Below, in pieces: positions 29,980-37,013 of a stretch of DNA of 64,000 nt (position 1 is the stretch's first letter; each line of letters opens with the position of its first letter). The stretch spans positions 62,001 to 126,000 of the forward strand of contig JAHDGU010000009.1 in the NCBI GenBank assembly GCA_020627535.1. Reading direction: 5' to 3'. This DNA is from Saprospiraceae bacterium. GTDB taxonomy: Bacteria; Bacteroidota; Bacteroidia; Chitinophagales; Saprospiraceae. The translations under genes and the position numbers were made by a program. The notes under the pieces were generated by a model. That model saw only the letters and a program-made list of their open reading frames with translations, was not told the origin of the DNA and did not search any database.

Positions 29980-29995
29980 GCGGTCCGGACGGGAC
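29980..29995. repeat. Left attachment site of the integrated element (tRNA-Asp 3' end copy)
   Basis: GCGGTCCGGACGGGAC is identical to the 16 bases at 36939-36954 that form the 3' end of tRNA-Asp. The match extends further as TCTA-N on the outer side with one mismatch. It is an isolated tRNA tail without the rest of the gene. Confidence 0.88.
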
Positions 29996-30065
29996 CTTAT
30001 AAGGCCATGTAACTACTTGATAATTTGGGTTTTTAACTCAAAGGTGCTGTGTAGGGTGCGTAGTT

Positions 30066-30725
30066 TTACTCTTCTGAATCATTCTGTTGACGACTCCTTT
30101 GAAGGAAATGACGTAACTCTGGCACGAACTCCTGTATATCCGCATGACTAACGGGTAGTGAGGATATTCTAGCGGTTGCTTGGAGCTCGATAGGCGTGAT
30201 CCTGCGATGAGAATCTCTAACCGTCTCGGGATCAATATCCAATGATGCACAATACCTCTCTAGGTATCCTGGCTCTGGATTAGACTCTTCTCCCCAATCT
30301 TGGTAAGACAGATAGTCTTCTTCAAGAAATCCTTTCAAGATATTCAAACAGAATCCAACACAGGTCATTCGTTCACCTAACTGATCAGCCATTTGGCCAC
30401 GATGCGTGCCGGCCAGATCGTAGTACTCTCCTGAATAGTATTGTCCGTATTGAGGTCTGGCTCTTTCCGCTATGAGTTCGGCCTGTGCAACAAAGGAAGG
30501 AATATCACCGCTGCTAACATATTCGAGTTTTGTGTAGTGCCAATGTGGATTTCGAACTGGCTCGATCAGTATTCTTGTTCCATCGAAGTGGATAACATTG
30601 ACAGTATTGCCCATCTTGTATATAAGGCCTGAATGGAGTTGGTTCTTGTATATGTACCGGATTGCAATTGCCAGAAAGTCGGGCTCTGCCGGAGCAATGT
30701 TGTATGAATGGGTAAGGGGAAACAA
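30066..30725 (-). CDS. Putative permuted papain/NlpC-like protein (element cargo)
   Basis: 219 residues. H31-S-G-L-I-Y...V-I-H-F-D-G (about 31-49) resembles the histidine box of circularly permuted NlpC/P60 and LRAT-like enzymes (H-x-G-x-x-Y...V-x-H), and T-C122-V-G-F-C-L-N could be the cysteine box. If so, it may be a hydrolase or acyltransferase. Both C122 and C126 are candidates. The start is a TTG; the frame continues without a break into the upstream gene except for one TAG, two codons earlier. The C-terminal third is charged and helical. The function is unknown and the fold call is tentative. Confidence 0.6.
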   Translation of the reverse strand: MFPLTHSYNIAPAEPDFLAIAIRYIYKNQLHSGLIYKMGNTVNVIHFDGTRILIEPVRNPHWHYTKLEYVSSGDIPSFVAQAELIAERARPQYGQYYSGEYYDLAGTHRGQMADQLGERMTCVGFCLNILKGFLEEDYLSYQDWGEESNPEPGYLERYCASLDIDPETVRDSHRRITPIELQATARISSLPVSHADIQEFVPELRHFLQRSRQQNDSEE

Positions 30726-30731
30726 CTCTGA

Positions 30732-31688
30732 CTAGACCTTGGCTATGAGCTTTTGATACGATTCAAGAAGGTTAGATCTGAGAGGACCAATACTCGGATC
30801 TTCTTTGAACGTCTTGCTCAGAACCAAGAGTGTCTTCATTTCACTTTGGTGAAAATTTGAATGATCAAAACCAACCAAGAGATACTTCAAGATCATTCTC
30901 CACTCTTCACGATCAGAGTCTACGGCACGCCTGTACATCATTTTTAACTTAGTAACTAATTCATTTTCAGCGTTGTACGACTCTAGGAAGTGTTTGATTG
31001 GTCCTACAGAATTAGATTCTAAGATTGCCTTATGTACGAGTGGAGTATTACTTTCGCTCGTCTGACTTGATTCAGAGTGCACCACCAATGATGATACATT
31101 CTCATACACTCCAACAGAATCCTGAATCTCCTTTAATTCATCTGTTGTACATGAAATCTTGACATGATTTTCAAGACCTTTATTGAAGTGGTACTCTGGA
31201 TTAGTGCCACCGATCTGATTGAGATACCCAGTTGCAACACCAACATAAGAACTATACCTCTTGTTCGGACCTCTTTTTTTGCGTATACGTTCAACCGACC
31301 TTACTTTTTCCCCGAAATCGGTCAGGCTTGAGTCAACAGTTCTATGAGAAAATCTAAACCGTCTGTGATCAGGCTTTAGCTCATTGTGTATGATCCGCAG
31401 ATTGTTAACGATCGTCACATTGTCTGATTCTGACTTGATTCCTTGATCTATTGCTCGAACGATCCCACTCATAGGAGATTGGTCAGCCTCAAGTGCTCCG
31501 GAAACAGATCCCTCCGATATAACAAAATTGAAATCATTCTGAGGATGAATAGCCTCTACTATCTCCCTCAGGGCACCAAGAACATTCAAAAATGACTTTA
31601 GGCCTTCGGAAGGTATACTTCCTAGAGTCACTGGCGCACCATTAACATGTGTCAATGCAATTTCTAATGTCTCAATTCTCTCGTCCAT
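30732..31688 (-). CDS. Unknown protein, probable partner of the NlpC-like cargo
   Basis: 318 residues, starting at the ATG giving M-D-E-R-I-E-T-L-E. The N-terminal part (about 1-100) has a beta strand, a helix (L-K-S-F-L-N-V-L-G-A-L-R-E-I-V) and V-I-S-E-G-S-V-S-G, a pattern typical of a small alpha/beta domain. The middle is basic (R-K-K-R-G-P-N-K-R near 145), and the last 90 residues look helical. It ends with a TAG and the same reading frame then continues as the downstream protein. A 167-base gap to the upstream lipoprotein gene leaves room for its own promoter. No family recognised. Confidence 0.65.
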   Translation of the reverse strand: MDERIETLEIALTHVNGAPVTLGSIPSEGLKSFLNVLGALREIVEAIHPQNDFNFVISEGSVSGALEADQSPMSGIVRAIDQGIKSESDNVTIVNNLRIIHNELKPDHRRFRFSHRTVDSSLTDFGEKVRSVERIRKKRGPNKRYSSYVGVATGYLNQIGGTNPEYHFNKGLENHVKISCTTDELKEIQDSVGVYENVSSLVVHSESSQTSESNTPLVHKAILESNSVGPIKHFLESYNAENELVTKLKMMYRRAVDSDREEWRMILKYLLVGFDHSNFHQSEMKTLLVLSKTFKEDPSIGPLRSNLLESYQKLIAKV

Positions 31689-31855
31689 AATTAGAGGATC
31701 TAGGCTAATTAACGTCAACAACTATTCCAAAACGCTCAAGCCTGGGCGAATATAACGAAGTTGCAACAAGAAAGATTCTCTTTAACACCGATTCAGCAAG
31801 CTTTTCACCCTACAAAGGGATTCTATGCTCTTAAACGCAAGTCTAGATCTGTGTC

Positions 31856-32557
31856 TTATCCACACACTATCCATCCTGCCTTTGACAATGCTAGGAACTG
31901 AGATGAACTCAGAGCCAAAGTCTTCCTCAACTCTTGTTTCTTATCCTTCAGTAGTTGCTCATAATAGGATTGATGTTTTTCGCCATATTGGGGATATTTC
32001 TTGTCTGCCAGTGAAATTGCCTCATCTTCTATATCTAGCATTGCGAAGTATGCACTGCAGAGGTCCGAGCCTTTAGATTTCAAGAGTTCATCTAATTTGA
32101 ATGCCTCCTCAACCCTCTGTTGATCGCTGTTGTGCTTTTGTATAGCTTCTAAGACCATCCTATTGGTCTGGACCTTAAGAGATTGATTCGGACCGCTATT
32201 CGAACACTTCGCGATCCAGCTAACATTTCTCCTAGCGGTTTCTCTACCTCTGAACAGCTGCATGTTGTAAAACAGACGTTTTGTAGATCTATCGAAGCCA
32301 AATGAATCCTTGCAGTGCTTATGGAGCTGTCTACATACACCATCTAGGTCTAAACTGTCTGAATACCCTTCTTTCAAGTACGCACGGATTTGGTACTTAT
32401 CGGCCGACTTTGAATTTGATATTTCTGCATTCTCTACAACGAACGGAAGAACTCGTTTTGGAAGCTTTGGCTGCGTGACATGGCCAAGAGACTCGTCTTG
32501 AGGTTTGCTGCAAGAAAAAAGTATTAACAAGAGAGGAGCCCAAATGAATCTGCTCAT
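31856..32557 (-). CDS. Element-encoded lipoprotein, unknown function
   Basis: 233 residues from the ATG giving a lipoprotein signal (M-S-R-F-I-W-A-P-L-L-L-I-L-F-S-C). The mature protein is rich in charged helices, with cysteines in V-C-R-Q-L-H-K-H-C near 75 and A-K-C-S near 120. An in-frame start 10 codons upstream would bury the signal. In temperate elements such lipoproteins can alter surface recognition or superinfection, but nothing in the sequence proves this. The 39-base gap before it suggests co-transcription with the DUF5681-like gene. Confidence 0.62.
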   Translation of the reverse strand: MSRFIWAPLLLILFSCSKPQDESLGHVTQPKLPKRVLPFVVENAEISNSKSADKYQIRAYLKEGYSDSLDLDGVCRQLHKHCKDSFGFDRSTKRLFYNMQLFRGRETARRNVSWIAKCSNSGPNQSLKVQTNRMVLEAIQKHNSDQQRVEEAFKLDELLKSKGSDLCSAYFAMLDIEDEAISLADKKYPQYGEKHQSYYEQLLKDKKQELRKTLALSSSQFLALSKAGWIVCG

Positions 32558-32596
32558 AGGAGTTGTTTGTTGTGCAAGATAAGACAATGTCAGCTT

Positions 32597-33064
32597 CTAC
32601 ATGATTGGATCGCTCTTATCATGCTCAGGATCACTGACATATAACATGATTGGTTGTATGTCATTTGGGAGATTGTTTGAGTCTTTTGTTGCATTCACAA
32701 TTTCCTTGAGAGCAGACAGGGATACCTTACTCCAATCAATATTACTTTGAGCAGCCTGTTCGTTATCATTGATTTGGTCGATCTTGTCCATGACAAGTTG
32801 GATTGCTCTTACTGCGTGAGTTCCATTTCCTGTCATAGCGATATTCAGAAGTCTCCAAATGAGCTGGACCTTATTAGGCATTGGGACCTTTATAGAATTT
32901 TCCTCAATCACTACTTCAGATTTCTTGAATTCAAGCCATCCTGTGCCATTTGCGAATTGTTGGAGTTCCTTGTTAATTGATGGTTTGCGTCCTCCAAGTT
33001 TGGCATCTTCAGGCCTCTTATCAAATCCATTTGAGTTTCTCTTGTTACCGAAATTTTCAATCAT
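32597..33064 (-). CDS. DUF5681/small-terminase-like protein
   Basis: 155 residues. The N-terminus N-G-F-D-K-R-P-E-D-A-K-L-G-G-R-K-P-S resembles the G-R-P-x-G/K start of DUF5681 and many small-terminase-like proteins of Bacteroidota phages. A helical middle (about 60-100: L-I-W-R-L-L-N-I-A-M...A-V-R-A-I-Q-L-V-M-D-K-I) and a variable tail follow. In phage satellites a small terminase directs a helper's packaging motor to satellite DNA. The match is by short motif only, so this is a moderate call. Confidence 0.5.
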   Translation of the reverse strand: MIENFGNKRNSNGFDKRPEDAKLGGRKPSINKELQQFANGTGWLEFKKSEVVIEENSIKVPMPNKVQLIWRLLNIAMTGNGTHAVRAIQLVMDKIDQINDNEQAAQSNIDWSKVSLSALKEIVNATKDSNNLPNDIQPIMLYVSDPEHDKSDPIM

Positions 33065-33083
33065 TAGAGTGTTATTAGAGTGA

Positions 33084-34292
33084 TTAGATTATTTGATTTA
33101 AGTTCAAGTCTTTCAATACATCGTGAGGTGTATCAATCCAATTACTTAGGTCCTCGTATTGTGCCTGACTCAATTGTACTTGCTCAGAAAGTGGAAATAA
33201 GGAATGTTGGGCCTTTTGAGCTAGTGTGAGCAATCGCTGTTTCAAGTTTGATCTAGCATTCCTCAACTTCTTTCTATCTGGATGGTCAAACTCGAGAGAG
33301 TATATCTCATCTGGATATGTGCCCTTTGGTATGTGACTTCTACTTGGTTCTTGATTGTCAGATTTCACACTATACACTATGGTGAAATCATCTAATGGAA
33401 GGCTCTTCTGCAAATCGGTTAAATCATCCCAATTGGCTGCTATAGAATCATGCAGAAGAAGCTGCATTGAATTGGTTCCTGTGCGAGAATTCAACTCTCT
33501 GAACTTCTTGTTATGATAGTAGAATCTCCCAGCTCCCTTTGCTCGATATTGCTCCCAAATCAAAGGATTGGAATACCGCTGAAGTCGCTCCCTGTGACTA
33601 TTGGTCATCTCTCCGCAAGAGATCCACTGAGGATCAATCATGATGAATTTGTCCCAAGTCTTCAGTAGGTCAGATCTGAGAATTTGATGAACCTCAGGTT
33701 GCAGCAAGTCTTCAACGTGCTGAATGCCGAGCTTAGAGTGATAAGCCGATTTTATAGACTTCTTCTCGAATCGGAGTAGGTTTGAATCCAATAGATACTG
33801 TTCTGACTTGCTATATAGCTTGATGAAGTATTGGTCACGTTCCCACTGGTAGTATCTACCCTTGTAGTCAAAGTTTTCCCTTCTCGAGTAATTGTATCCA
33901 GACCAAGTGATTACATGAGACTTTATCAAATCGCTGGGGCCCATAGGCACCTTACAATTGACTCCATACTCTAGATTCGTTACTAGTGCCTCAGAGGTTG
34001 AGATTTGTAGATGATCTACTAACCAACCAATGGTAGTGTCGAGCTGGTTGATCGAGAACATACTATGGTTTTGAGACCCCTGACCCGTGATTGCATTGTA
34101 GAGCTTATGCAATGAGCCATGCAGCTTCAAACCTCTAGAGGTGATGGTTAAGTACAAATCATGAAATCTGGAGCGAATTGGGTACTTGCTCTCTCCTGTA
34201 GCCACGCTGTATGTTCCATTCCAATCAAGGAAATCAAGAGCGAGTAGCCTGTCCTCGTCAACCGGGCTTTCAATCTTCACAAAGTCAATCAT
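33084..34292 (-). CDS. Replication initiator-like protein (gene II/X or Rep_trans type)
   Basis: 402 residues. Segments L-K-L-H-G-S-L-H-K-L-Y-N near 58, L-E-Y-G-V-N near 107 and F-I-K-L-Y-S-K-S-E-Q-Y...L-L-R-F-E-K-K near 155-177 resemble rolling-circle initiators of filamentous phages and small plasmids. A canonical HUH metal motif is not obvious, so activity is not certain. It starts 3 bases after the Xis-like gene's stop. A replication gene in an integrated element implies that the excised form can replicate. Confidence 0.6.
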   Translation of the reverse strand: MIDFVKIESPVDEDRLLALDFLDWNGTYSVATGESKYPIRSRFHDLYLTITSRGLKLHGSLHKLYNAITGQGSQNHSMFSINQLDTTIGWLVDHLQISTSEALVTNLEYGVNCKVPMGPSDLIKSHVITWSGYNYSRRENFDYKGRYYQWERDQYFIKLYSKSEQYLLDSNLLRFEKKSIKSAYHSKLGIQHVEDLLQPEVHQILRSDLLKTWDKFIMIDPQWISCGEMTNSHRERLQRYSNPLIWEQYRAKGAGRFYYHNKKFRELNSRTGTNSMQLLLHDSIAANWDDLTDLQKSLPLDDFTIVYSVKSDNQEPSRSHIPKGTYPDEIYSLEFDHPDRKKLRNARSNLKQRLLTLAQKAQHSLFPLSEQVQLSQAQYEDLSNWIDTPHDVLKDLNLNQII

Positions 34293-34295
34293 TGC

Positions 34296-34568
34296 CTAGT
34301 ACTCTAGCTTGATTGGGGCCTTGAGTACTTCAACCCTCTTGTATAGGACTCTTCGACCTATACGATACTTCGTCAAGATACCTTGTTTCGCCCATGCGCT
34401 TACAGTCATTAGAGTTACCTTGAAGTGGTCGGCAACTTCTTGGGCGGTCCAGTACTTGTGATCTTGATAGTGATTCTCTCTATCTTGAGAGATTGCGTCT
34501 TCGATGCTACTCTGAATGGTTGCGAGTAACTCAGCCTTGCTAAGGGGAATGATTGTCATATTCTCCAT
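34296..34568 (-). CDS. Excisionase/AlpA-like HTH protein
   Basis: 90 residues with a MerR-type winged helix in the last 50 (Y-W-T-A-Q-E-V-A-D-H-F-K-V...T-V-S-A-W-A-K-Q-G-I-L...R-I-G-R-R-V-L-Y-K-R). Such proteins act as excisionases or activators of element genes. A second in-frame ATG follows at codon 4. It is preceded by a double operator-like palindrome at 34601-34626. Confidence 0.78.
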   Translation of the reverse strand: MENMTIIPLSKAELLATIQSSIEDAISQDRENHYQDHKYWTAQEVADHFKVTLMTVSAWAKQGILTKYRIGRRVLYKRVEVLKAPIKLEY

Positions 34569-34600
34569 GTCGGAATTTTTAGTTCAGACACAAAGAGATG

Positions 34601-34626
34601 TTAGTCTTTACTTAGTCTTAGACTAA
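34601..34626. promoter_or_regulatory. Operator-like repeats before the Xis-Rep unit
   Basis: TTAGTCTT at 34601 recurs at 34612, where it belongs to the perfect 15-bp palindrome TTAGTCTTAGACTAA (34612-34626). The 11-base offset is one helical turn. The site lies in the only gap of this half of the element, so it is the natural control point for excision and replication genes. Confidence 0.6.
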
Positions 34627-34632
34627 TTTCAA

Positions 34633-35367
34633 TCAATCAGACATATCTAAGCCTATTTCTGAGAGTGTGGCTTCAAAATGTGCACTGGTACTAGGGAGTC
34701 GACCATTCTTCAGTTTGTTAATGTACCCTTGAATGATTTGAGGTTCGCTCTTCTCAACCAGTCCAAACCGTACCAAGGCAATTGCGAACTTGTTTTCTGA
34801 AATATTCTTCTCTTCAAGTAGTTTGAAAATTCCCAATCTTATAAAGAGTCTGATCCGATCAGGATCCTTTAACGAGCTGTTTGCTCCCAATGCTTCTGCA
34901 TTATCCCCAAGTTGAATTTCGTTTTTAGCTTTTTCGTACTCAAACTCCTTCGATCTTGTCTTGAGCTGATCTATTGTAGTTCTCAAGACTTCCAAATACA
35001 TCCCTTCACCCTTCTTAACCGCACTCAACGGCATCCCTTCCCAAGTTTTGGTTGTCTTAATCCTAAGGAGTAATATCTCAAGATCAGTCGGACTAATCTT
35101 CTGTATTTCCTCATACGTAAGTGCAGAAAGGTAGAGTAATTGATCTTCCGTTGAATCTTCTGAGTCAAATACTTCAAGTACCTGAGGATGGACAGTTGGT
35201 CGTATGTGGTCAGTGAAAGACAAACCATGTTGATCCCAGTCAATGTGATAACATTTTTTTATTGATCTGACCAAAAAAATTATACCTGAAGCACTCTTCC
35301 ACACATCCTCTTCAAATAGTTCATCTTCGAGTTCTGGTCCGTAGTAGTCTTCTTGCTCAATATCCAT
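34633..35367 (-). CDS. Element regulator-like protein, unknown
   Basis: 244 residues from the ATG two bases after the integrase stop. The N-terminal 30 residues are very acidic. The last 80 (about 165-235) have a helix-loop-helix arrangement reminiscent of a phage repressor-like HTH (N-K-F-A-I-A-L-V-R-F-G-L...I-I-Q-G-Y-I-N-K-L-K-N-G). The middle is helical with K-A-K-N-E-I-Q. It could be the element's immunity repressor, but I do not recognise a named family. An alternative TTG start overlaps the integrase by 8 bases. Confidence 0.62.
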   Translation of the reverse strand: MDIEQEDYYGPELEDELFEEDVWKSASGIIFLVRSIKKCYHIDWDQHGLSFTDHIRPTVHPQVLEVFDSEDSTEDQLLYLSALTYEEIQKISPTDLEILLLRIKTTKTWEGMPLSAVKKGEGMYLEVLRTTIDQLKTRSKEFEYEKAKNEIQLGDNAEALGANSSLKDPDRIRLFIRLGIFKLLEEKNISENKFAIALVRFGLVEKSEPQIIQGYINKLKNGRLPSTSAHFEATLSEIGLDMSD

Positions 35368-35368
35368 A

Positions 35369-36757
35369 TCATGCAATCTTTAGATGGCCTGCGCCTTTGA
35401 AGAAATCTGATTGCTCAATCCTCTTGATAGAATCGAGCTGATCAATGAGGATGTACTTCTGGAACGAGTCCAGTTTCTTATGTGCTGTCAGCTTCATGAT
35501 GTCATACGCAGGGATGCCCGCTAAGTACATATTGGTCGCGCCTGTTCGTCGTGCTGTGTGTGTGGTCATGAGTTCATACTTTGGCTTTGACTTGATGACG
35601 GTTTGACCCTTAGAGGTTTCATTGACTTGGACCATGCCGTCGATACCTGCGAGCTGGCATACTTCTTTGATATACTTATTCAATTTCTGAGGGCTCAGCT
35701 CGGGAATAGAGTAGTCGTGTCTCTCTAATATGGTCCTTAGCTCTGGCCTGATTGGTATCTTGACTTTGTACTTGGTTTTCTGATTGATCATTTCGATGTA
35801 CTCGCCCTTGATATGGTGCGGCCTGATCCTTGAGTAATCTGAGTGTCTGAGAGCAGTGTAGCAACCACATAGGAATATGTCTCTGGCCTTGGATAGGTGA
35901 GCTGGCATGTCATCCAATTCAAACAATACTCTTACCTCTGTCCGAGTAAGTGCTACATGAGTAGACTGAGACTTTGGCTTCTTGATCTTATCCAAAGATG
36001 AAAGTATTCGCCTGACCTCGATGTCCTTGATCAATGGCTCTTCATCTTTCTTGATGAGTTTGTAGTTCTGATCTTGAATACCTGATAGGAATTCTCTCAC
36101 CACTCTTTTGAGATGCTGTATGCAGCGACCGGCATAGGCTGGTTTCACATTTCTCTCTGAGTATAGGTATTGAAGCCAATCCTCTATCATTTCCCTACTT
36201 ACATCTTCAATCATGAGTTGGCGCGAGGAATGATCCTGGAATTTGTCAAGAGCCTCTTTGGTGGTCATGTAGGCCTTCACTGTGCTGTAGTTGTACCGAG
36301 AGCCGCTATCGGTCAGTATCTTGCCTCTGCCAGCTCTGAAGATAAAGTCTGTGAAGATCTCACTGAGCTTGAAGTCTTTTCGCTTTTCCTTCTTTTGCTC
36401 AGGTCGTGCAGTTTTGATCTTGGAGTCGAGGTATTCCTTCCAGTCTTTCTTTTTAGGTGTGGTCATGCTCATATCGGCCAGTCCAAACCATTCGTCCGAT
36501 AGAGTTACGATCTTCTTGAGCCTTGCCCTGATATTCTTGAGTTGAGTATCGAGCTGAGGAATTGACTTCGAGTACTCAGAGATGAGCTTTCGCGACTTTG
36601 TGGGTTCTTGACTATCTGGATTCCATAGAGAAGGGATAATCTGGCATCCTGTACCATATAGCCACCTCTGGCCCTGATGATAGAAGAGTAGCCTGATGGA
36701 TGTCGCACCTGTGGCAGACGCCTCCTTCAGACGAAACTGATAGTTCCGCTGGTTCAT
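35369..36757 (-). CDS. Tyrosine recombinase (integrase)
   Basis: 462 residues. An N-terminal Arm/SAM-like region is followed by a catalytic domain with the first arginine in Y-T-A-L-R-H-S-D near residue 300, H-T-A-R-R-T near 395, T-A-H-K-K near 418 and the nucleophilic tyrosine in S-F-Q-K-Y-I near 430. The final H of the usual H-x-x-R is in place. It is adjacent to the tRNA-Asp attachment site, as expected for a site-specific integrase of this element. The upstream region has paired repeats and palindromes that could be arm sites. Confidence 0.93.
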   Translation of the reverse strand: MNQRNYQFRLKEASATGATSIRLLFYHQGQRWLYGTGCQIIPSLWNPDSQEPTKSRKLISEYSKSIPQLDTQLKNIRARLKKIVTLSDEWFGLADMSMTTPKKKDWKEYLDSKIKTARPEQKKEKRKDFKLSEIFTDFIFRAGRGKILTDSGSRYNYSTVKAYMTTKEALDKFQDHSSRQLMIEDVSREMIEDWLQYLYSERNVKPAYAGRCIQHLKRVVREFLSGIQDQNYKLIKKDEEPLIKDIEVRRILSSLDKIKKPKSQSTHVALTRTEVRVLFELDDMPAHLSKARDIFLCGCYTALRHSDYSRIRPHHIKGEYIEMINQKTKYKVKIPIRPELRTILERHDYSIPELSPQKLNKYIKEVCQLAGIDGMVQVNETSKGQTVIKSKPKYELMTTHTARRTGATNMYLAGIPAYDIMKLTAHKKLDSFQKYILIDQLDSIKRIEQSDFFKGAGHLKIA

Positions 36758-36782
36758 ACACTAACTTTCCTTAAAGATAGTG

Positions 36783-36879
36783 AGGTGCGGTCTCAGGTGC
36801 GGTATTTATTATATCTTATTTTATCCCATTTGATAATGGGAAAATCTTGGATCAATCGCGAAACGCCCGTATACCGGCG
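36783..36879. promoter_or_regulatory. Candidate integrase/Xis arm sites and int promoter region
   Basis: Between the integrase start and the right att site lie two direct copies of AGGTGCGGT (36783 and 36795, 12 bases apart), the perfect palindrome CCCATTTGATAATGGG (36825-36840), and the near-perfect palindrome CGCCCGTATACCGGCG (36864-36879). Such clusters next to an att core are typical of recombinase arm and accessory sites. No gene is seen. Confidence 0.45.
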
Positions 36880-36898
36880 GTTTAGATCAAATCAGAGC

Positions 36899-36936
36899 AA
36901 AAAAAGAGCCAATTCCAAATCAATGAAATCGGCTCT
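36899..36936 (-). terminator. Element-borne terminator now serving tRNA-Asp
   Basis: On the minus strand, a 12-bp stem with two wobbles (AGAGCC... / ...GGCTCT) and a run of seven T lies four bases after the tRNA 3' end. Its sequence is unrelated to the terminator left behind at 29941. Confidence 0.82.
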
Positions 36937-36938
36937 AA

Positions 36939-36954
36939 GCGGTCCGGACGGGAC
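36939..36954. repeat. Right attachment site (within tRNA-Asp 3' end)
   Basis: Same 16 bases as 29980-29995. Because the copy is exact, the tRNA remains intact after integration. Confidence 0.88.
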
Positions 36955-37013
36955 TCGAACCCGCGACCTCCTGCGTGACAGGCAGGCATTCTAACCAACT
37001 GAACTACCGGACC
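36940..37013 (-). tRNA. tRNA-Asp (anticodon GTC)
   Basis: 74 bases. Acceptor stem GGTCCGG/CCGGACC with discriminator G, D-loop with AGTTGGTTAGA, anticodon loop CTGTCAC, T-arm GGTTCGAGTCC. No CCA encoded. It is the integration target of the adjacent element. Confidence 0.97.

Follow-up and report, generated by a model that had tools for sequence, protein, structure and literature searches.

A 64,000-nucleotide stretch of a Saprospiraceae genome (GenBank assembly GCA_020627535.1, contig JAHDGU010000009.1), referred to here as the window, contains a 6,975-bp element whose genes all lie on one strand and which is flanked on both sides by the same 16 bp, a sequence repeated from the 3′ terminus of tRNA-Asp. 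We consider a phage satellite that replicates by the rolling-circle mechanism to be the most likely reading of this element, and hold that reading with moderate confidence. The core of the element consists of (i) an integrase gene (int); (ii) a regulator-like gene; (iii) a helix-turn-helix (HTH) gene of the HTH_17 type; and (iv) a gene for a putative replication initiator, Rep. As this core is the same module that we found in relatives across Bacteroidota, the window element would inherit the likely lifestyle of that family: excision, rolling-circle amplification, and helper-dependent transfer.

An integrated element at tRNA-Asp

An earlier note on this DNA had described a 7-kb, one-strand gene set bounded by a tRNA-Asp repeat, and this description held. 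The repeat (GCGGTCCGGACGGGAC) is exact and present in two copies in the window, with no third copy at up to two mismatches and none in 100 shuffles, and the eight open reading frames (ORFs) between the copies, all on the minus strand, follow the order that had been given. The features are as follows (coordinates are those of the window; aa, amino acids).

29980-29995, no strand: attachment-site repeat, left copy, all 16 bp identical to the tRNA-Asp 3′ end
30043-30059, plus strand: paired GGTGC-N7-GGTGC, left, putative integrase arm-type site (motif count)
30066-30725, minus strand: cargo gene B, 219 aa, orphan; no match in four family libraries, 375 Bacteroidota genomes, or plasmids
30732-31721, minus strand: cargo gene A, 329 aa, orphan; no credible family match, none in plasmids
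31856-32587, minus strand: predicted lipoprotein, 243-aa ORF with lipobox LLILFSC by sequence inspection; no family match
32597-33064, minus strand: 155-aa protein in the slot that holds small-terminase-type genes in relatives; GGRKP..N near the N-terminus and IDWSKVS.ALKEI at the C-terminus as in locus L098, statistics weak
33084-34292, minus strand: Rep, predicted rolling-circle initiator of Rep_trans-like fold, 402 aa (AlphaFold fold and active site)
34296-34568, minus strand: HTH_17 or excisionase-type regulator, 90 aa (PF12728, E 1e-7, above cut-off); putative AlpA/Xis role
34633-35376, minus strand: fast-evolving regulator-like gene, 247 aa, assigned by position; 8 bp shared with the end of int, no library match
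35369-36757, minus strand: tyrosine recombinase (integrase), 462 aa; PF00589, PF17293 (Arm-DNA-bind_5), and PF13102 above cut-offs
36784-36800, plus strand: paired GGTGC-N7-GGTGC, right, putative integrase arm-type site (motif count)
36939-36954, no strand: attachment-site repeat, right copy, identical to the 3′ end of tRNA-Asp
36939-37013, minus strand: tRNA-Asp (GTC), the target gene (ARAGORN)

Just inside each attachment-site (att) copy lies one GGTGC-N7-GGTGC pair (GGTGCNNNNNNNGGTGC); these are the sole two occurrences in the window, where 0.04 would be expected, and none of 100 shuffles gave two. Paired repeats with a period of 11–12 bp were also found near both ends of five relatives (L018, L092, L095, L097, and L104), with letters that differ from element to element (TTACTGACTAAATACTGACTAA at both ends of L092, GGTTTGGCAACGGTTTGGCAAGT in L097, AATCCGTCCCCTATTCCGTCCCC in L104), suggesting that the paired end repeats serve as arm-type integrase sites. 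The pair inside each end provides a second, independent support for the element borders. The element also differs in composition, having a G+C content of 42.5% vs 47.2% in the remainder of the window. With its att repeats and integrase, it has the site-specific integration looked for in a satellite.

Among the eight proteins, only the integrase and the HTH_17 protein reached Pfam cut-offs (PF00589 and PF12728), bearing out the integrase and Xis-like HTH protein named earlier; the HTH_17 protein also matches phrog_66, "excisionase and transcriptional regulator" (E 7e-7). Its PADLOC match to "mad1" was rejected as a generic HTH_17 match that marks no defence system. The other six proteins yielded no credible match in Pfam, PHROG, NCBIfam, or PADLOC. 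Within the limits of these four libraries, the scans agree with the earlier statement that capsid, tail, and conjugation genes are absent: neither a complete virion gene set nor conjugation genes were found among the eight proteins, as is expected of a satellite. All eight frames are intact and the gaps between them mostly short, with 3–19 bp separating the HTH, Rep, 155-aa, and lipoprotein genes.

Rep has the fold and active site of rolling-circle initiators

A Rep-like protein had been proposed from the window alone, and it does appear to be an initiator by fold and active site, although no family match accompanies it. We modelled it with AlphaFold from a 27-row alignment, its rows taken from the window and related loci (predicted local distance difference test score (pLDDT) 79, predicted template-modelling score 0.70; residues 308–338 unreliable). 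The best solved Foldseek matches to this model were RepDE (E 5.9e-6) and RepSTK1, and VIA-align superposed Rep on RepDE with a Z of 11.8 and a root-mean-square deviation of 3.8 over 224 residues, the first unrelated fold (TBP) following at Z 7.0; the concern that the protein might lack an initiator fold is thereby answered. The TBP matches, a lower-scoring arrangement (Z about 6–7), were rejected as kin. Among viral models matching the fold, two of the top three were inovirus Rep/G2P proteins.

In RepDE/RepSTK1, the metal ligands are D46/D9, D142/D116, and E214/E196, and the nucleophile Y191/Y179 is surrounded by R189/R177, K193/K181, and E196/Q184 (PMC4797284). In our alignment D3, E108, E176, Y160, and K162 are present in all 27 rows, K158 in 26, and Q165 in 23, and the spacing is close to that of RepSTK1 (D9/D116/Y179/E196 vs D3/E108/Y160/E176). 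By position and spacing, the family has a catalytic tyrosine with basic residues on either side and acidic residues as its three metal ligands, and by fold comparison it has the crescent catalytic fold of RepDE/RepSTK1. Residues 1–294 of Rep share the fold common to these two proteins, which belong to the pT181 group, and to filamentous-phage G2P, and all catalytic positions of RepDE/RepSTK1 are in common. However, Rep has an extra C-terminal part, has lysine rather than arginine at the Y-2 position, and, unlike RepDE/RepSTK1, belongs to a family that sits in chromosomally integrated elements.

No Pfam model, PF02486 included, detects any of 11 Rep members, so that Rep is a divergent branch by fold and not a Pfam member. 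We conclude from the model that Rep is a rolling-circle initiator of Rep_trans-like fold with predicted nicking and replication activity; the initiator fold and intact active site point to the replication function of its own that a satellite should possess. Rep homologues were detected in 10 of 247 genomes with a single-protein query and in 29 of 395 with a profile, the host being counted in both, while a back-translated search of genome and viral collections with the window Rep confirmed nothing.

A conserved module across Bacteroidota

We collected 61 Rep loci across Bacteroidota. In 49 of them an integrase gene lies within 7 kb and an HTH gene beside Rep, on one strand throughout, and in most relatives int and the HTH gene are separated by a gene that evolves fast. 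Genes in the order int, regulator, HTH_17, Rep thus form a conserved module, and the family defined by it is common, though little noticed, in Bacteroidota. Direct repeats overlapping or abutting the 3′ end of a tRNA or tmRNA gene delimit 22 elements, including that of the window; the bounded elements measure 4.7–12.3 kb (median near 7.6 kb) and are without capsid and conjugation genes. Among the hosts named in the records are Flavobacterium, Chryseobacterium, Tamlana, Polaribacter, Christiangramia, Psychroserpens, Tenacibaculum, Winogradskyella, Fibrella, Rudanella, Spirosoma, and Lacihabitans. One relative (L018, 6.9 kb, at tRNA-Cys) comes from the host's own family, Saprospiraceae. The near-minimal 5.1-kb element of a Winogradskyella (L102) holds int, small ORFs, a regulator, the HTH gene, Rep, and a gene of 140 aa but lacks a packaging gene, and a Flavobacterium group (L076–L091) has long cargo and no detected tRNA repeat.

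Several further observations concern these loci. In a Tenacibaculum metagenome-assembled genome (MAG), two family elements with divergent Reps stand in tandem at one tmRNA (L100:1283-13166). A conserved gene of 123–159 aa lies between the HTH gene and Rep in L102 (9471-9893) and ten relatives, in the Flavobacteriaceae branch. A 186–205-aa protein with the motif C-P-x(3-4)-C-R-K/I-L, a possible zinc site, recurs near the distal end of several elements (L092:13211-13807, L059:6058-6657, L016:12532-13092, L017:7219-7797, and L110:6483-7100). Finally, L075 (MT835707.1), deposited as "Bacteriophage sp.", has topoisomerase and large DNA-methylase-type genes, by inspection, beside a family Rep, and is probably not a phage.

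Phage-type genes follow Rep in relatives

Three relatives (L101, L059, and L016) carry one phage-virion-type gene each after Rep, and four (L059, L098, L107, and L101) have a small-terminase-type gene in the slot after Rep. The order in L101, from a Flavobacteriaceae MAG, is int, regulator, HTH, 201 aa, Rep, 214 aa, 653 aa. The 214-aa protein is 31.8% identical over 97% to gene 1 of Flavobacterium phage FCOV-F4 and 36.5% over 115 residues (E 1e-14) to gp01 of Cellulophaga phage phiSM, both of which lie just upstream of the terminase large subunit (TerL) gene, where a small terminase is expected. The 653-aa product is a tape-measure protein, with 54.6% identity over 99% to that of phiSM and phages of its type. 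These two genes, the tape measure at full length, directly follow Rep (L101:11543-14346), an arrangement that may reflect tail piracy. Inspection of the L101 locus, whose outer borders are not firmly defined, revealed no other evident phage structural gene.

In L059, an 8.06-kb element at tmRNA, Rep is followed by a 78-aa gene and then by a 624-aa gene. The 624-aa tail-type protein is 35% identical over 98% to a protein of Flavobacterium phage 11b and is also similar to gp088 of Cellulophaga phage phi10:1, which proteomics places in the virion. The 78-aa gene is of the GGRxKGxxN-family small-terminase type and groups with the same-slot genes of L098 and L107. In L124, a member of this small-protein family stands directly before a TerL gene (phrog_979, E 1e-34); other relatives of the 78-aa gene are named DUF5681 in Bacteroides phage BF1-TP2, where they do not adjoin the terminase. 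In L016, a 667-aa protein is 31.8% identical over 80% to a protein of Chryseobacterium phage MA9V-3 whose role is unknown. Another kind of small int-HTH element, near tRNA-Arg (L125:5858-9385), has a different putative replication gene (226 aa), followed by a GGR/KKG-type small-terminase-like gene of the 78-aa family.

In the Rep tree the three relatives with virion-type genes are scattered over separate branches, and the association with such genes has therefore arisen or persisted more than once. Since at least two or three members have acquired packaging or tail genes from phages, elements of the family probably travel in hijacked phage particles, and the small-terminase and tail or virion genes lend strong support, from sequence comparison, to the term satellite at the level of the family. 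To a wider proposal we give about an even chance: that elements with this module and a rolling-circle Rep at tRNA or tmRNA genes form a Bacteroidota-wide satellite family, some of whose members redirect helpers with a small terminase of their own plus one tail gene, for either the tape measure or a distal tail protein, that is, by piracy of tails rather than capsids.

The 155-aa protein and the cargo

The earlier note had called the 155-aa protein DUF5681-like or small-terminase-like. Its gene lies directly after Rep, in the slot occupied by small-terminase-type genes in relatives, and the protein shares GGRxP..N and IDxSKxSxxxLKEI with the same-slot protein of L098. However, DUF5681 was not detected in the library scans, the kinship to small terminases was not significant, and a back-translated search of viral contigs confirmed nothing; apparent homologues in 198 genomes were judged spurious. 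Because the statistics are weak, we do not call the protein a terminase; by its slot, it is a candidate small terminase that may redirect packaging.

The two cargo genes and the lipoprotein gene of the window are orphans. Cargo genes A and B, 6 bp apart, likely form one operon, and cargo gene B possibly encodes permuted papain-like (NlpC/P60-type) residues, as judged by eye. The true start of the lipoprotein is probably the internal methionine of MSRFIWAPLLLILFSCSKP, before its lipobox. In relatives, restriction-modification families predominate among the larger genes behind Rep: among 74 hand-chosen, mainly larger genes downstream of Rep, Pfam identified ResIII (10), Eco57I (9), N6_Mtase (8), C5 methylase (4), and type I specificity (4) families, and PADLOC matches were mostly to methyltransferases. 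Near one family Rep (L062:10728-13837), a helicase gene and a 311-aa gene resemble, by eye, a Hachiman-type defence pair.

Proposed mechanism

In the satellite reading, the integrase and the HTH_17 protein, probably together with the regulator that overlaps int, would recombine the 16-bp sites, so that a 7-kb circle leaves tRNA-Asp, as the anatomy of the element suggests. Rep, as a metal-dependent tyrosine endonuclease, would nick the circle and start rolling-circle replication, giving many copies or concatemers; its fold and catalytic residues are consistent with this step. By analogy with its relatives, the window element would then be packaged: the gene content of three distant relatives suggests that the packaging and virion proteins of a helper phage would carry its DNA to new hosts, the 155-aa protein redirecting packaging if it is indeed a small terminase. 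The host genome has, on another contig, a prophage with TerL and tape-measure genes, which is a possible helper; it lies on host contig C19 (L135, about 299–319 kb), and its tape-measure-like protein has 1000 aa. A second TerL-like match in the host (C9, 37 kb) was rejected because on inspection the gene is PhoH-like. The lipoprotein and the two-gene cargo probably benefit the host or the satellite, for example by excluding competing phage, because restriction-modification and other defence genes fill the same slot in relatives.

Weighing the alternatives

Several results weigh against a satellite. No gene of the window element is significantly homologous to phage packaging or virion genes. 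For the 155-aa protein, the best relative, the L098 same-slot gene, was found at E 0.086 among about a thousand ORFs; against 207 size-matched controls the 155-aa protein ranked second by best score and seventh by mean; no hidden Markov model match was significant; and structure prediction without an alignment was unusable (pLDDT 40). Rep_trans-type proteins also act as conjugative relaxases (PMC4797284). The window Rep is only about 20–29% identical to its relatives and is unplaced, on a long branch, in the Rep tree. IMG/VR yielded no relative to any of four Rep queries and only two contigs to a profile query, though that collection favours contigs with virus hallmark genes. Excision of the window element is predicted from its anatomy, and in the only same-genus genome (G247) the site that might be empty falls at a contig end, the flanking gene and tRNA-Asp both lying at contig ends. 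In that genome only 3 bp separate the start of tRNA-Asp from the end of its contig (L139:1-80); the break coincides with the att site and looks as if it had been caused by an integrated or excising element.

The main rival, which we regard as unlikely, is an integrative mobilisable element, in which Rep would be a relaxase of the Rep_trans kind that nicks an origin of transfer in the excised circle while a conjugative element supplies the channel. Conjugative elements are common in Bacteroidota, which counts for this explanation, and by inspection a relative Rep in the L075 fragment (MT835707) accompanies conjugative-element genes. The Rep_trans group, moreover, includes the relaxases of Tn916 and ICEBs1 (PMC4797284), and an integrase, a Rep_trans-type endonuclease, and a tRNA target are common to such elements and ours. 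However, scans of the element against the four libraries revealed neither a coupling protein nor a MOB relaxase nor any accessory gene for mobilisation, and relatives hold phage genes; their lone small-terminase and tail genes would be left unexplained by mobilisation. The host genome also yielded no PF03432 relaxase or TIGR03783 TraG match, although in controls these models missed many genomes.

Somewhat less probable still is an integrated rolling-circle plasmid that spreads passively, by transformation, generalised transduction, or vesicles, with no dedicated helper, the phage genes of relatives being accidental cargo. The near-minimal L102, having no packaging gene, and the many relatives with only restriction-modification or orphan cargo would fit such a plasmid. 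However, none of 72,556 plasmid records carries this Rep, and it is unlikely that a small terminase was acquired by accident along with a tape measure from the same type of phage, the two genes directly following Rep; satellites of the phage-inducible chromosomal minimalist island (PICMI) type, furthermore, may be without any packaging gene (PMC10803314). A decayed prophage, of which the lone phage-type genes of some relatives could be leftovers, is very improbable given eight intact frames with mostly short gaps, a module and compact size seen repeatedly, at many tRNA genes and in families far apart, and the lack of a recognisable phage structural gene in the window element.

Relation to known satellites

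Phage-inducible chromosomal islands (PICIs), including the Staphylococcus aureus pathogenicity islands, are site-specific islands with int, a regulator, a xis/alpA-type gene, a primase-type rep, and a small terminase, and without capsid genes. The parallel with PICIs drawn in the earlier note stands as regards the family gene order (int, regulator, xis/alpA-type gene, rep, with a small-terminase-type gene next in several relatives) and the bounded, site-specific, non-conjugative island without capsid genes. It does not extend to a strict PICI: there is no primase match in the element by Pfam, its replication gene being the Rep_trans-like Rep, no capsid-remodelling gene was found, and the 155-aa gene is a candidate packaging gene only.

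PICMIs of Vibrionaceae are about 6 kb in size and contain iolg, a small gene that overlaps int and is needed for excision (PMC10803314). The window element resembles them in its core of an integrase, an AlpA/HTH_17-type regulator, and one replication gene, and in a small gene overlapping int; PICMIs, too, lack capsid genes and sometimes packaging genes, and carry anti-phage cargo (PMC10803314). In contrast, PICMIs have a primase where this element has a Rep_trans-like rolling-circle initiator, and integrate next to fis, whereas the element lies in tRNA-Asp and most bounded relatives at tRNA or tmRNA genes; its host belongs to Bacteroidota, and some relatives have small-terminase and tail genes. 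By analogy, the element would work most like PICMI satellites, yet it is neither a PICMI nor a strict PICI. Archaeal Charybdis elements (PMC12324425), for which no integrase/Rep module is described, were set aside as unrelated.

The satellite families covered by a recent review were described in phyla other than Bacteroidota (PMC11389934), and a search of open-licence full texts found no description of satellites in Bacteroidota. The combination of int, HTH_17, and Rep at a tRNA gene is a simple search rule, cultured host genera can be named (Flavobacterium, Chryseobacterium, Polaribacter, Tamlana, Winogradskyella, and Spirosoma), and phiSM-type, FCOV-F-type, and 11b-type phages are candidate helpers; satellite biology thereby becomes testable in a major phylum of gut, soil, and sea. 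Where a satellite supplies a tape measure of its own, tails may be hijacked or resized, and the family would carry some of the restriction-modification genes that move about in Flavobacterium.

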